Shown here one piece after another: positions 5,368-48,573 of a stretch of 64,000 bases of DNA (position 1 is the first letter of the stretch; each line of letters starts with the position of its first letter). The notes beneath the pieces were generated by a model. That model made no database searches. It was not told the DNA's origin and saw only the letters and a program-made list of their open reading frames with translations. The stretch covers positions 186,001 through 250,000 of the forward strand of contig NZ_CP047897.1 of the NCBI RefSeq assembly GCF_009913235.1, given 5' to 3'. This DNA comes from Nibribacter ruber. Lineage in GTDB: Bacteria > Bacteroidota > Bacteroidia > Cytophagales > Hymenobacteraceae. The position numbers and the translations under genes were made by a program.

Positions 5368-6711
5368 TTACAACTTGGTGAAGTCGTAGCTGTCTAGGTA
5401 GCTGGTCGTGAACTCACCAGACTTGAATCCTTCATCATCCATCATGGCTAAGTGGAATGGAATGGTGGTTTTTACGCCCTCAATCACAAACTCACTCAAA
5501 GCCCGCTTCATCTTCACAATCGCCTCTTCGCGCGTTTGGGCGCTTACAATCAGTTTGGCAATCATGGAGTCATAGTTGGCTGGAATGGTGTAGCCCGCAT
5601 ACACGTGCGTATCTACGCGCACGCCGTGGCCGCCAGGTATGTGCAGAACGTTGATTTTGCCTGGGCTTGGGCGGAAGCCTGCCTTCGGGTCCTCTGCGTT
5701 GATGCGGCACTCAATGGCATGCATCTGCGGATAATAGTTCTTACCAGAGATTGGAATACCGGCGGCTACTTTGATTTGTTCTTTGATCAAGTCATAGTTC
5801 ACCACTTCTTCCGTGATAGGATGCTCCACCTGAATACGGGTGTTCATCTCCATGAAGTAGAAGTCCTTGTGCTTGTCTACCAGGAACTCAATAGTACCCA
5901 CACCTTCATAGTTGATGGCGGCGGCACCGGCAATGGCGGCTTGGCCCATGCGCTCACGCAGGTCCTCATCAATGAACGGCGAAGGCGTTTCCTCAATCAA
6001 TTTCTGGTGACGGCGCTGGATAGAACAGTCACGCTCAGAGAGGTGACATACCGTTCCAAACTGGTCGCCTACAATCTGGATTTCAATGTGACGGGGCTCC
6101 TCCACAAATTTCTCCAGGTACATGCCATCGTTCCCGAAAGCTGCCTTGGCTTCCTGACGGGCGTCGTTCCAGGCTTTGTCAAACTCGTCCTCAGACTTGA
6201 TAATGCGCATACCGCGTCCACCACCACCAGCGGTGGCCTTGATGATGACCGGGTATTTGATTTTGGCGGCTAGTTTCTTGCCTTGCTCGGCAGAGGACAA
6301 AAGACCTTCAGAACCAGGAATGGTAGGCACGCCGGCCTTCTTCATGTACTCCTTGGCAGACGACTTGTCGCCCATGGAGTTGATCATTTCTGGGGCCGCG
6401 CCAATGAACTTAATGCCGTTTTCAGCACAGATTCTGGAGAACTCCGCGTTTTCTGAAAGGAAACCGTAGCCCGGGTGAATGGCGTCGGCGTTGGTGATTT
6501 CTGCCGCGGCGATCAGGTTGGGGATGTTCAGGTAAGACTGGGCGCTAGGGGCGGGGCCAATACATACTGCCTCATCCGCGAAGCGTACGTGCAAGCTCTC
6601 CTTGTCTGCGGTAGAGTAAACGGCTACCGTCTTAATGCCCATCTCTTTGCAGGTACGAATGATCCGCAACGCAATCTCGCCCCGGTTAGCGATTAGTATC
6701 TTTTTAAACAT
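5368..6711 (-). CDS. accC: Acetyl-CoA carboxylase, biotin carboxylase subunit
   Basis: Carboxylates the biotin of AccB with bicarbonate and ATP, the first half-reaction of malonyl-CoA synthesis. The 447 residues match the family length. Seen in order: N-terminal Rossmann-like domain [16 protein letters not shown]-grasp glycine loop [11 protein letters not shown]; catalytic segment [18 protein letters not shown]-terminal barrel with ECRINAEDP. Last gene of the DUF177-rpmF-plsX-fabH-efp-accB-accC run, separated from accB by a 117-bp spacer with degenerate inverted repeats, unlike the 4-bp efp-accB junction. The carboxyltransferase subunits are not in this window. Confidence 0.97.
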
Positions 6712-6717
6712 TGTTGT

Positions 6718-6830
6718 CTAATTTGGAGATTTGAAGATTTGGAGATGTGAAGATGCAATGAAGAAAAAGGAGACACGGTTAAGCATCTCCATTCTCAAAT
6801 CATCTCATTTTCAAATTTTCAAATTTGATT
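6718..6830. repeat. ATTTGAAGAT-type degenerate inverted repeat in the accB-accC spacer
   Basis: The left part (6719-6756) repeats ATTTGGAGATTTGAAGAT-like units. The right part (6782-6830) has the inverted form (CATCTCCATTCTCAAATC, TTTTCAAATTTTCAAATTTG). The transcript could fold into a long imperfect hairpin inside the operon. Confidence 0.6.
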
Positions 6831-7320
6831 AACTAGGATCTACCAGGAACAGGGGTTGGTCATACTCAACCGGGGTGGCATTGTCTGTTAAGACTTTCAC
6901 AATGCGGCCAGACACTTCAGACTCAATCTCGTTGAAGAGTTTCATGGCTTCAATGATGCAGATCACCTGTCCTTTTTTGATTTCATCGCCTACGTTCACA
7001 AACGCCGGAGACTCTGGGTTGGCTGAACGGTACAGGGTGCCAATCATAGGCGCCTTGATGGTTACGTAGCGGCTGCTGTCATCTGCGGCGGCGGCCGGTG
7101 CTGCTGGGGCAGCCGGAGCAGGGGCAGACGCTTGCGGAGCAGCCTGGGCGGCTGGAGCAGGCGCGGCTTGTTGCGCAGGAGCGCCACCCGTTACGTAGCT
7201 TACTTTTTGGTTAGGCTCACGTTGTACAGAAATTTTGAATTCCTCTGTTTCAATGTCTACTTTGTTCAGACCAGATTTCGCGATGAAATCAATGAGTTCT
7301 TGTAGTTCCTTAGCTTTCAT
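6829..7320 (-). CDS. accB: Biotin carboxyl carrier protein of acetyl-CoA carboxylase
   Basis: Carries the carboxybiotin between AccC and the carboxyltransferase. The 163-residue protein has an N-terminal helical region (about 1-40), an Ala/Pro-rich flexible linker (about 46-80) and a C-terminal biotinyl domain with the attachment motif [10 protein letters not shown]; the biotinylated residue is Lys127. The ATG at 7318-7320 is 4 bp after the efp stop, so translation is probably coupled with efp. All expected parts of the family are present. Confidence 0.97.
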
Positions 7321-7324
7321 AGGT

Positions 7325-7888
7325 TTATTTTACTCGTTCGGCGTATGAATAGGTACGCGTGTCTACCTTAATTTTTTCGTCCATGCCAATGAACAAGGGA
7401 ACGGTGATGGTGGCTCCTGTTTCTACAATGGCTGGTTTGGAGGCGTTGGTGGCCGTGTCTCCCTTGATGCCCGGCTCTGTATACGTAACGGTTAGTTCTA
7501 CATACGTAGGAAGTTCAGCCGTCAGGGGCGTTTCTGTCTCTGCGTGGAACAAGATAGTAACTTCCTGGCCTTCTTTCATCAAATCTGCGAAAGGCACCAA
7601 TTTATCATTCAATGTTACCTGCTCAAAGGTGTTGGCGTCCATGAAATTGTAGCCATAATCATCTTTGAAAATGAACTGGTGCGGACGCTGCTCTACGCGG
7701 GCAGTGGTCACCTTGATGCCGGCGGTAAAGGTGTTGTCCACTACTTTGCCGGTTTTGATGTTCTTTAACTTGGTACGAACGAAAGCGGGACCCTTGCCTG
7801 GTTTCACGTGCTGAAACTCAGAGATGAGCCACAAGTCGCCGTTGAATTCAATGCATAGCCCGTTGCGGAAATCAGCGGTAGTTGCCAT
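7325..7888 (-). CDS. efp: Translation elongation factor P
   Basis: Relieves ribosome stalling at polyproline by entering the E site. The 187 residues match the family and fold as three beta-barrel domains; the C-terminal signature [14 protein letters not shown] is present. The loop that is modified in other bacteria reads KPGKGPAF, with Lys32 at the tip. This is compatible with a lysine-modified EF-P but also with an unmodified one; no EpmA/EpmB gene is in the window. It is transcribed with fabH upstream and accB downstream. Confidence 0.97.
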
Positions 7889-8011
7889 AGTAATGCGTTA
7901 TTTTCAAAAAATGGGAAGCCGAAATGCTTCGTATTTACACAAAAAAAATTCGGCCAAAGATAGCCGAATTTCTTGATTTATATAGGAAAACTGTATAAAA
8001 ACACTGCGTGA

Positions 8012-46070: not shown

Positions 46071-46370
46071 ATGTTTATAGCACTCAGTACTTTTACTATA
46101 GCCAATGACATGGCACCGGCGGTGAAAGAGGCCTTTGTGAACCGCCCTGGTTTAGTGGAAGGAGCCCCCGGATTCATTCGCCTGCAGGTAATTTCGCCCA
46201 CAGACAATCCCCAGGAAATCTGGCTCATTACCCAATGGACAGATGAGGAAAGTTATAAGGTCTGGCACCGCAGCCACCTGTACCATGCCTCGCACAGCGG
46301 GATTCCCAAAGGTTTGAAGCTGGTGCCAAGATCGGCGAAGGTCAGGTTTTTTGAACATATCTGCGAATAG
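46071..46370 (+). CDS. IsdG-like antibiotic biosynthesis monooxygenase domain protein
   Basis: A 99-residue single-domain ABM-family protein. The core GFIRLQVISP and the WLITQWTDEESYKVWHRSHLYHASHSG region match heme-degrading IsdG/HmoB-type monooxygenases. Trp65 and His75 have the same ten-residue spacing as the heme-pocket Trp67/His77 of S. aureus IsdG; a partner for its Asn7 is not clearly seen (Asn12 is a candidate). It stands 17 bp before the cobalamin-photosensor gene and is probably co-transcribed with it. Heme degradation is possible but not established; many ABM proteins have other roles. Confidence 0.78.
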   Translation: MFIALSTFTIANDMAPAVKEAFVNRPGLVEGAPGFIRLQVISPTDNPQEIWLITQWTDEESYKVWHRSHLYHASHSGIPKGLKLVPRSAKVRFFEHICE

Positions 46371-46387
46371 AAGAGAGGAAAGCAGAC

Positions 46388-47440
46388 ATGCCAGAAAACA
46401 GAAGAAAAGCAGCGGCGTTACTAAAGCGTCTGGAACCCGAGTTGGTGGAGCAAACCCTGGCCCTGGTCTATGCCCAGAACCCAGACATGGAGGCCCGCTA
46501 CGGCGAGTACGGCAAAGAGAAGTGCCGGCAAGACACCCACTACCATTTCTCCTACCTGATAGAATCTGTGGGTTCTGGCAGTTCGGCGTTGTTCAATGAT
46601 TATGTGTTGTGGGCCCAGCAGGTGCTGGAAACCCGCCATTTGCCTGTTAAAGACCTGCACGCGCATTTGGGTGCGCTCAAAGACGTGGTTACTCAGAACC
46701 TGCCCATAGACCATTATGTGCTGGTGGCCAACCACCTCAATAGCGCCTTGCACGTGCTGGAAGAGAGACACGGCCTTCCGCCAGAGACAGAACCGATTCT
46801 TAGTGATGTGGCCCAACAATACCTTGACTTTCTGCTAAATGGAAAGCGCCACCAGGCCATTGAACTGGTTTTAAATGAAGTGGAGAAGGGCGTGCCTATA
46901 AAAGAAATTTACCTCACGGTGTTTCAGGCGGTGCAGCACCAGATTGGCCGGCTCTGGCAACTAAACAAGATAAGCGTGGCCCAGGAACATTTTTGTACCG
47001 CTGCCACGCAGTGGGCCATGTCGCAACTATATCCGCAGGTCTTCGGCTCAGAAAGGAACGGCTTGAAACTGGTGTCTACCTGCGCCTCCGGCGATTTGCA
47101 TGAACTGGGCGTGCGCATGGTCAGCGACTTTTTTGAAATGGAAGGCTGGGATACGTACTACCTGGGTTCTAACGTGCCGGTGCATAGCCTGCTCAGCGCC
47201 CTAAGGGACCAAAAACCAGACCTCTTGCTTTTGTCAGCCACCATGACCTACCACGTGCCTGCGGTAGAAGCAGCCATTGAGGCGGTAAAAAAAGCCCAGG
47301 ACTTGCAGGACATTAAAATAATGGTGGGCGGCTATCCGTTTAATACCGCAGAAGGGCTCTGGCAACAAGTAGGCGCAGACGGACACAGTAAAAACGCCCA
47401 GGAGGCGCTGGAATTGGCGCAGGAGCTAATAAAAAAGTAA
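46388..47440 (+). CDS. CarH-type cobalamin-binding photosensor-like protein without DNA-binding domain
   Basis: A 350-residue cytoplasmic protein. Residues 1-140 form an all-helical sensor-like region (YGEYGKEKCRQDTHYHFSYL) that I do not recognise with confidence. About 145-215 is the four-helix cobalamin cap, with the CarH signature W-x9-EH (Trp190, Glu200-His201), which in CarH puts Trp and His over the adenosyl group. About 225-350 is the Rossmann B12-binding domain with D-x-H-x-x-G (Asp236, His238, Gly241) and VGGYPFN (Gly314-315). There is no MerR DNA-binding domain. A light- and adenosylcobalamin-sensing role is inferred; the output is unknown. Flanked by the ABM gene and the PAS-like gene. 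Confidence 0.85.
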   Translation: MPENRRKAAALLKRLEPELVEQTLALVYAQNPDMEARYGEYGKEKCRQDTHYHFSYLIESVGSGSSALFNDYVLWAQQVLETRHLPVKDLHAHLGALKDVVTQNLPIDHYVLVANHLNSALHVLEERHGLPPETEPILSDVAQQYLDFLLNGKRHQAIELVLNEVEKGVPIKEIYLTVFQAVQHQIGRLWQLNKISVAQEHFCTAATQWAMSQLYPQVFGSERNGLKLVSTCASGDLHELGVRMVSDFFEMEGWDTYYLGSNVPVHSLLSALRDQKPDLLLLSATMTYHVPAVEAAIEAVKKAQDLQDIKIMVGGYPFNTAEGLWQQVGADGHSKNAQEALELAQELIKK

Positions 47441-47479
47441 CTCAAAAGAGAAGGAGAGGGTTTGGAAAGAAAGAACGGG

Positions 47480-47977
47480 ATGGTGTGGCGATGTTCACTG
47501 GAAGGGACGGTTTTGGAGGTGGTCTCCACAGATTTTCCCAATCTTGCTCCAGAGCCTGCAGGCAAATCGTTTATGGAAGGTCTCAGCAAGTCTTCAAGGG
47601 ACTTGGCCAGCGTCTGGTTCCAGAAGTTTCCAGCCAGTGTCAGCCTTCTGCCCAACGTCCGGTTTGCCAATGATCCCACGGGGCAGGCATTTACAGTAGG
47701 CCTTACCAAAGTGGGCGAGGAGTTCTGGATGTTCTGGAGTACTGCGCAGGCCATGCTCCCGCTACCACCACAATTGTCTGGCACCCATTACCAGGAGGAC
47801 GAGCAGGCAAATACCCAACCCCATAAAATCTGGGAACCAGACCTGCAGCACGTAGAACTGCTGGAGGAACTGAGCCGCGTGAACAATGAACTGGTCAACG
47901 CCCGCCGCGAGCTGATACGGCAGAACATAGAGCTGCACCGCATTCACCGCAAGTCAAGTGAGAACAAACCTACCTGA
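47480..47977 (+). CDS. PAS-like domain plus coiled coil, no output domain
   Basis: A 165-residue protein (ATG at 47480; a TTG at 47462 behind AAGGAG is an alternative giving 171). Residues 1-95 have the strand-rich pattern of PAS domains found in histidine kinases (GTVLEVVSTDFPNL, GKSFMEGLS, VRFANDPTGQAFTVGL, EEFWMFWSTA). The C-terminus is a signalling coiled coil, LSRVNNELVNARRELIRQN, of the type that normally runs into a histidine kinase or GGDEF domain. Here the chain stops after RIHRK, so no output is attached. Repeat copy 19 starts 2 bp after the stop. It may be a stand-alone signal partner of the B12 photosensor or a truncated kinase. Confidence 0.75.
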   Translation: MVWRCSLEGTVLEVVSTDFPNLAPEPAGKSFMEGLSKSSRDLASVWFQKFPASVSLLPNVRFANDPTGQAFTVGLTKVGEEFWMFWSTAQAMLPLPPQLSGTHYQEDEQANTQPHKIWEPDLQHVELLEELSRVNNELVNARRELIRQNIELHRIHRKSSENKPT

Positions 47978-48068: not shown

Positions 48069-48503
48069 CTACAATCCCTGCTCTTTCAGAATCCTGAACA
48101 CTTTCTTGCGCATGTAGAAGAGGCGGCCCGTCATCACCCCAAAGATGATGGCATACGTGAACGCAGACAACATCTGGCCATGAAACCAATGCCCGAACAC
48201 CCACTTCTTAGAAAATGTGAACAGCAGATAAACCAGCAGCGTGATGATGCTGATGCGGTCAAAGGGTGCTATGATTCTGTTGCTCTCCTCATGCCATTCA
48301 ATGGTAGAAAGATTGCCCACCAACAAGCCAATAATCTCTCCCAACACCAATCCGCTCATGGCCAGTGGCCAGCCTATGTGATGCGTGTACACATGATAGC
48401 TCAGTAACAGGAGCATGAGGCTGGAGAGGCAGGTGAACATGAAAACGCGCACCAGTAATTTGCGCTGGAAGTGTCTATGCAGGGAGAGAGACAATTTGGG
48501 CAT
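48069..48503 (-). CDS. Hypothetical membrane protein, four segments
   Basis: A 144-residue integral membrane protein. The ATG at 48501-48503 (MPKLSLSLHRHFQRK) is chosen because an upstream reading would run through the repeat at 48508. Four hydrophobic segments follow the basic N-terminus: about 19-42 (FTCLSSLMLLLLSYHVYTHHI), 45-66 (WPLAMSGLVLGEIIGLLVGNL), 84-103 and 115-135 (LSAFTYAIIFGVMTGRLFYM). Positively charged loops are consistent with both ends inside. No family is recognised. Confidence 0.72.
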   Translation of the reverse strand: MPKLSLSLHRHFQRKLLVRVFMFTCLSSLMLLLLSYHVYTHHIGWPLAMSGLVLGEIIGLLVGNLSTIEWHEESNRIIAPFDRISIITLLVYLLFTFSKKWVFGHWFHGQMLSAFTYAIIFGVMTGRLFYMRKKVFRILKEQGL

Positions 48504-48507
48504 ATAG

Positions 48508-48534
48508 CGTTTTTGGCCTGTTTTCTGGAAAAGA
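48508..48534. repeat. Truncated palindromic repeat in a 5' leader
   Basis: Left arm and centre are present (CGTTTTTGGCCTG, TTTTCTGGAAAA); the right arm is lost. It ends 5 bp before the ATG of the minus-strand membrane-protein gene, so it forms part of that gene's leader. Confidence 0.7.
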
Positions 48535-48573
48535 ATGAAAAAATGACAATTTAGTATGCATGCCAACTAAATT

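Follow-up and report, generated by a model that had tools for sequence, protein, structure and literature searches.

The window analysed here is a stretch of 64,000 nucleotides from Nibribacter ruber (family Hymenobacteraceae; NCBI RefSeq assembly GCF_009913235.1, contig NZ_CP047897.1, positions 186,001 to 250,000), and within it lies a putative light-sensing cassette of three genes on the forward strand, which we term A, B and C. Gene A (46071–46370) encodes a 99-residue protein of the ABM/IsdG fold, proposed to be a bilin-forming heme oxygenase. Gene B (46388–47440) encodes a 350-residue photoreceptor of the predicted photocobilin type, with a bilin globin first and B12 domains second. Gene C (47462–47977) encodes 171 residues from a TTG start: a predicted PAS domain and signal helix, resembling the front of a histidine kinase from which the kinase is absent. 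The open reading frames (ORFs) bear out the head-to-tail cassette proposed in the initial annotation, with a gap of 17 base pairs (bp) between A and B and of 21 bp between B and C, or 39 bp if C begins at the in-frame ATG located 18 bp after the TTG.

Gene B appears to be a photocobilin with the bilin domain placed first, and not merely a CarH-like protein. Pfam recognizes B12-binding_2 (9e-14) and B12-binding (1e-22) domains, and together with the alignment delineates a helical and Rossmann B12-binding module at residues 140–350 (46805–47437, forward strand). The four light-signature motifs GxxW, EH, GxxH and GxxxP, as defined in the portion of PMC11796333 drawn on here, are complete in the alignment as GRLW190, E200-H201, GDLH238 and GSNVP264. 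No MerR domain, the hallmark of CarH, was found in B by Pfam; a globin occupies the N-terminus instead (residues 2–126; 46391–46765, forward strand), modelled as five helices and housing the predicted bilin pocket. This region matches the Pfam Phycobilisome family at 4.8e-4, under the cut-off. For wider comparison, we used the best 80 of 410 relatives from a profile scan of GTDB contigs (hereafter the named loci, labelled L). The N-terminal part of a profile built from the window protein and 50 of these 80 relatives—the 30 left out include all four without D49—matches the allophycocyanin-type protein ApcF (2e-6) and the globin domain of SasPcob (2.4e-5).

The best PDB sequence matches of B are likewise photocobilins (8j2x, 8j2w and 8j2y). 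D49 and W75 (the latter at 46610–46612, forward strand) align with Asp270 and Trp296 of SasPcob, with a numbering offset of 5 counted by hand, and excerpts of PMC10979010 describe these as the residues that hold biliverdin. Among the named loci D49 is kept in 76/80 and W75 in 80/80. D49 closes the segment C46-R-Q-D49 (46523–46534, forward strand), an instance of the CXQD motif reported for photoglobins in the excerpted text of PMC10151467; Cys46 itself is present in 32/80. An AlphaFold2 model of B (predicted local distance difference test, pLDDT, 94.7; predicted template modelling score, pTM, 0.89) retrieves B12 light receptors, photocobilins and corrinoid proteins in Foldseek over some 210 columns, evidently the B12 half. 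Because photocobilins carry the B12 domain at either end (PMC10979010, in part), the domain order of B is not in itself new. We predict that B binds adenosylcobalamin (AdoCbl) and biliverdin and undergoes photoconversion in green and in red light.

For C, no Pfam match was returned and hence no kinase or GGDEF domain; the HisKA and HATPase_c domains by which a histidine kinase is recognized are absent. Its AlphaFold2 model (mean pLDDT 83) displays PAS strand and helix order and then a 40-residue helix, with the PAS domain at residues ~5–94, a disordered linker at 101–122 and the signal helix at 128–167. The modelled fold is that of a PAS domain: the best Foldseek matches are PAS domains (probability 1.00; top E 1.5e-3, none at E ≤ 1e-3), AppA-PpsR structures appear among the matches, and sequence searches with C gave no significant PAS match. 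The most conserved section of C is the signal helix, ELLEELSRVNNELVNARRELIRQNIELHRIH (47843–47962, forward strand), and 12 of the 13 positions invariant among eight C sequences from intact cassettes fall in the signal-helix region. In six named loci (L079, L088, L101, L106, L118 and L125) the helix alone, without the PAS part, matches the C profile, which suggests that the helix is the part B acts on. In other phyla B is followed by a kinase whose N-terminal part is homologous to C; judged from sequence, C is a histidine kinase that has lost its catalytic half.

Gene A matches the Pfam ABM family at 8e-14 and so has the fold of IsdG-family heme oxygenases; its match to NCBIfam HmuQ (4e-8) is under the family cut-off, and a profile of A matches TT1380, HmoB, IsdI and MhuD-type structures. 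Like the heme oxygenases of the IsdG/HmuQ type, A has the triad residues Trp65 (46263–46265, forward strand) and His75 (46293–46295, forward strand), as well as a Trp56 at the spacing of LFO1 Trp91. Unlike them, it carries Ser6 (46086–46088, forward strand) at the position of the IsdG Asn and is genetically linked to bilin photoreceptors. Ser6, Trp65 and His75 are all kept in 42/42 aligned rows, representing 37 distinct loci, of B-linked A copies, and Ser6 was also seen by eye in 20 further copies.

Much of the initial annotation therefore stands: the IsdG-like character of A with its Trp65 and His75, a suggested tie of A to tetrapyrrole turnover, the W-x9-EH motif of B (W190-x9-E200-H201) without MerR, and a PAS/coiled-coil C without kinase or GGDEF output. 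Its description of B as CarH-type captured the B12 light module and missed the N-terminal phycobiliprotein-like globin that makes the protein a predicted photocobilin.

The named loci span Acidobacteriota, several proteobacterial groups, Chloroflexota, Verrucomicrobiota, Planctomycetota, Bacillota, Lokiarchaeota and others, many of them as metagenome bins. In 75/80, B is followed on its own strand by a C-type protein, within ~420 bp and mostly within 30 bp, and in L088 the two are fused, giving a C partner in 76/80; the four loci without one are three from Pontibacter and L126. When 69 non-truncated downstream proteins were scanned together, HATPase_c was found in 67, HisKA in 61 and GGDEF in two; the partner in L130, scanned apart, also has HATPase_c, so that non-truncated partners of B carry HATPase_c in 68/70 cases and GGDEF in 2/70. 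The two that end in GGDEF without HATPase_c, in L119 and L123, suggest that the output module is exchangeable. The gene after the partner kinase resembles a response regulator in many named loci, and a receiver domain was found in 6/6 such genes selected by eye for scanning. Related cassettes, most of which have a complete kinase, occur in many bacteria and on a few archaeal contigs. Upstream of B, an A-type protein lies on the same strand within 208 bp in 33/80 loci, and L070, where A lies beside B on the opposite strand, brings this to 34/80; a weak A match in L131 (E 0.005) was left uncounted.

Within the family sample, 150 genomes of Hymenobacteraceae (labelled G), B occurs in 26 (E 3.4e-52 or better), and in eight of these it is joined by A and C, without exception in the order A-B-C. 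In the remaining 18, B has neither A nor C next to it; 12 of these loci are close to the electron-transfer-flavoprotein genes that are also found near B in the window. D49 is kept in 8/8 trio members vs 0/18 of the other family B proteins. Eight named loci (L057–L062, L077 and L110) apparently overlap this sample. In these samples the truncated C is confined to the eight trio genomes, of which five recur among the named loci; since all eight lack an output domain, the kinase loss is old. The initial annotation would have been refuted by a trio that is not conserved, or by a PAS gene truncated recently in this strain only; neither is the case, as the trio recurs in 8 of the 26 family genomes with B and the missing output domain is common to all eight. 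Its split signalling system holds insofar as B and C belong together, in 75/80 loci and one fusion. What it took for a split pair is, in gene content, a two-gene sensor/kinase system whose kinase was lost in the host family.

Support for a role of A in chromophore supply comes from comparison with the canonical heme oxygenase, PF01126. Among the 150 family genomes, A occurs in 70, a PHY domain in 129 and PF01126 in 47, and the overlap between A and PF01126 is zero. One or the other is present in 117/131 genomes that have a PHY domain or a pocket-intact B vs 0/19 that have neither (Fisher p 1.5e-15, uncorrected for kinship). Only two phytochrome-less family genomes, G001 and G007, have A; they have no PF01126, and their A adjoins a pocket-intact B. 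Phytochrome-less genomes whose B lacks D49 have neither A nor PF01126 in 10/10 cases. The PF01126 gene lies within 6 kilobases (kb) of a PHY domain in 46/47 genomes. In four A-less named loci (the near relatives L111, L115 and L132, and L128), a PF01126 gene stands next to B in place of A. Of the 70 A-bearing genomes, 62 have A without the trio, and at least 39/63 non-trio copies lie within 6 kb of a PHY domain, a count that misses the second copy of the window genome. That copy (G000 C1:2807070) is the divergent neighbor of a PAS_2-GAF-PHY-HATPase phytochrome. Inspection of 20 of the 63 non-trio loci found a phytochrome within 6 kb in 12, the electron-transfer-flavoprotein slot in six and neither in two.

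A phylum-wide sample of 247 genomes offered a prediction test. A was found at E ≤ 1e-20 in five genomes, one of them the window genome; neither a PHY domain nor PF01126 was found in the remaining four. If A supplies a bilin, such phytochrome-less genomes are expected to hold a pocket-intact B, and 4/4 do, with A, B (C46, D49 and W75) and a C-type protein of kinase length (402 residues) clustered. In the same sample PF01126 accompanies 15/18 PHY genomes; of the remaining three, A is present in the window genome, both synthases are missing from G306 and from G387, and the only PHY match of G387 is weak and contains stops. Production of the chromophore is the most likely role of A.

Some observations on phytochromes stand apart from this comparison. 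In the family genomes at L158, L160, L162 and L163, a phytochrome photosensory module is encoded apart from a CheB-CheR-PAS-kinase protein, with an A gene adjoining; the module is 518 residues long in L162 and cut by the end of the locus in the others, and the CheB-CheR-PAS-kinase assignment is from Pfam for L163 only. The window genome has a 531-residue PHY ORF at G000 C1:75211, outside the window. In L155 (3495–6087), from a family genome, the electron-transfer-flavoprotein slot holds a phytochrome and A, vs A-B-C in the window genome, a possible swap of photoreceptor beside the same enzyme. L039, L040 and L147 have a photolyase/cryptochrome-like gene, recognized by eye, and a short-chain dehydrogenase-like gene beside this slot.

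We consider it likely that A-B-C forms a light-sensing unit with its own pigment supply, in which C serves as a docking or adaptor subunit. A, presumably an O2-dependent heme oxygenase, would cut heme to a biliverdin-like bilin, which the globin of B would bind via D49, W75 and possibly Cys46, while the C-terminal domains of B would bind AdoCbl with His238 as the lower ligand. On absorption of green light by AdoCbl, or of red light by the bilin, the Co-C bond would then break and B would change in oligomeric state and shape. Published work on relatives shows such a step: SasPcob holds AdoCbl next to biliverdin, its Co-C bond is cleaved under green or red light and its dimer dissociates; standalone photocobilins alter the activity of partner enzymes by contact (PMC10979010, in the passages drawn on here). 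B may pass its change by contact to the PAS domain and signal helix of C; this contact we infer from gene order and the one natural fusion, L088. In most relatives the helix leads into a kinase with HisKA and HATPase domains, and a response regulator often comes next. In the host family, the kinase half having been lost, C would have been kept as a docking or adaptor subunit that acts on a partner, for instance by helix pairing with another kinase.

More broadly, we lean toward the view that A represents a new Ser-Trp-His clade of ABM-fold bilin synthases, serving phytochromes and photocobilins in place of the canonical heme oxygenase; that with B and a PAS kinase it constitutes a widespread, self-supplied bilin/B12 two-component light system; and that the host family has reduced this to a kinase-free switch operating by contact alone.

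Several findings weigh against this combined picture. Excerpts of PMC5557675 state that all characterised IsdG enzymes need Asn, Trp and His, and by that rule A, with Ser for the triad Asn in 42/42 rows, is not formally a member of the IsdG family. In 46/80 named loci no A lies beside B on either strand, and D49 is kept in 42 of these 46, so in many cases B may draw its bilin from elsewhere or do without. Upstream genes of the A-less B loci cluster into kinase-like proteins, a few small groups and the recurrent PF01126 group of four loci mentioned above; apart from these four, the survey of A-less genomes covered the genes beside B. The link between D49 and A within B loci draws on three changes of D49. 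In a quick tree built from 96 B sequences out of 106 (eight duplicates, the L088 fusion and the broken L107 were omitted), the 26 family members fall into one group (Shimodaira–Hasegawa-like approximate likelihood ratio test, SH-aLRT, 97), with 12 changes implied in A and three in D49. The three groups without D49—Hymenobacter-type, Pontibacter and Ginsengibacter—all lack an adjacent A; three such events cannot carry a test, and a paired test of D49 against A on the tree has 2–3 usable pairs and hence no power.

The exclusion between A and PF01126 largely follows genus, A being found in g1–g4 and PF01126 in g4–g6, both occurring only within g4 (three and four genomes, overlap zero), and hence the Fisher p does not describe independent events. 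Neither synthase was detected in 14 of the 131 receptor genomes. In the phylum sample 5/20 PF01126 genomes have no PHY domain, and heme oxygenase there does not imply a phytochrome. Synonymous divergence (dS) is saturated in many gene pairs. Finally, the C profile finds no second C-like protein in the window genome at E ≤ 1, and no KaiB is found there at E ≤ 0.001.

Among alternatives, the best placed, though we think it unlikely, holds that the helix of C pairs with the phytochrome kinase or another PAS kinase, so that a single kinase would serve two photoreceptors; such pairing is a form of the explanation preferred above and not exclusive of it. Signal helices dimerise, both A copies of the window genome adjoin a predicted bilin receptor, and related genomes encode phytochrome sensor modules apart from the kinase protein. 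Against such pairing, the C profile has no second match in the window genome, and no candidate partner was identified.

Slightly less probable in our estimation is that C is a fading remnant, with B acting alone or with another protein as in the Pontibacter- and Hymenobacter-type genomes that have a lone B. C is the fastest-changing of the three genes, and the 18/26 family B proteins without A or C beside them have lost the bilin Asp. C is nonetheless an open frame in 8/8 trio genomes, its invariant positions concentrate in the helix region, and the ratio of nonsynonymous to synonymous substitution rates (dN/dS) is 0.17–0.28 in three of five pairs, the other two not being computable; by this measure C looks functional.

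Two further possibilities strike us as improbable. A could instead serve in iron or heme housekeeping, or be a non-heme ABM oxygenase, and sit in the operon by chance: it has Ser for the catalytic Asn, it is missing beside B in the 46 loci noted above, and many IsdG relatives are expressed under low iron (PMC5557675, in part). Opposed to this are the mutual exclusivity of A and PF01126, the association of A with bilin receptors, the second A copy beside a phytochrome and the 4/4 outcome of the prediction test. Equally doubtful is that B senses AdoCbl or redox state rather than light, its globin being a structural leftover. A good number of B carriers come from groups generally regarded as anaerobic, and D49 is lost in 18/26 family members. 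Excerpts of PMC10979010 also describe weak biliverdin binding by AbDPcob. Yet window B keeps all four light-signature motifs, D49 and W75 are near-universal among the named loci, and light sensing is the function of photocobilins and CarH, the characterised relatives closest to B in sequence and fold. KaiBC as the output of C in the window genome was rejected on the absence of KaiB.

Kai genes do occur near B elsewhere. In the family genome G001, KaiC and KaiB lie directly downstream of the trio, after the truncated C, and KaiC and/or KaiB lie near B in 6/80 named loci from Bacteroidota, Chloroflexota and Gammaproteobacteria (L060 at 6084–7915, also seen as L036; L090; L095; L107; L114; L129), with Pfam checks in five of the six, L129 excepted. 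Such neighborhoods suggest that some lineages have a Kai clock that receives light signals. In the window itself, a small protein with no Pfam match is encoded directly after C on the reverse strand (48069–48566), with a homologue in 2/25 other family loci compared, and a search upstream of A for a Bacteroidota-type −7 box gave no match common to the eight trio loci.

The preferred reading, a self-supplied light-sensing unit with C as adaptor, can be placed among known systems. Purple bacteria employ AerR-CrtJ and AppA-PpsR, in which contact with a B12-binding or B12-like protein regulates a PAS/helix protein, and PpsR and CrtJ have a DNA-binding output; C, by contrast, has no DNA-binding output and descends, by prediction, from a histidine kinase. 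CarH, the MerR-B12 repressor, shares with B the B12 fold, W-x9-EH and the lower His ligand, whereas B has no DNA-binding domain and adds a bilin globin and a PAS/kinase-type partner. The photocobilins SasPcob and AbDPcob resemble B in joining a B12 light module to a bilin globin with conserved Asp and Trp, and in having standalone forms that act on a partner enzyme by contact (PMC10979010, as excerpted). Unlike in SasPcob, the globin of B is N-terminal and has Cys in the CXQD position; the partner of B is a PAS/kinase-derived protein of the same operon, and an ABM protein lies upstream. The clusters of BBAG-2, a B12-binding protein and heme oxygenase, described in part of PMC10151467, bring the same three functions together, with globin and B12 protein as separate genes there.

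Earlier work has described photocobilins and photoglobins, as well as their connection to heme oxygenase. The main text of PMC10151467 does not contain the terms IsdG, monooxygenase or histidine kinase, nor does that of the 2024 photocobilin paper contain 'operon', 'histidine kinase' or 'heme oxygenase'. The literature searched contained no account of an ABM protein that makes bilin for photocobilins and phytochromes, of the conserved kinase partner or of its truncated form, the 2022 photoglobin paper lying outside that search. If our reading is correct, two missing pieces of photocobilin systems would be named: the PAS-histidine kinase that follows the receptor in many phyla, and the upstream ABM enzyme in part of them. 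The source of bilin would be explained for those phytochrome-bearing Hymenobacteraceae that have no canonical heme oxygenase, and the version present in Nibribacter ruber would represent a natural kinase-free switch, useful in optogenetics.

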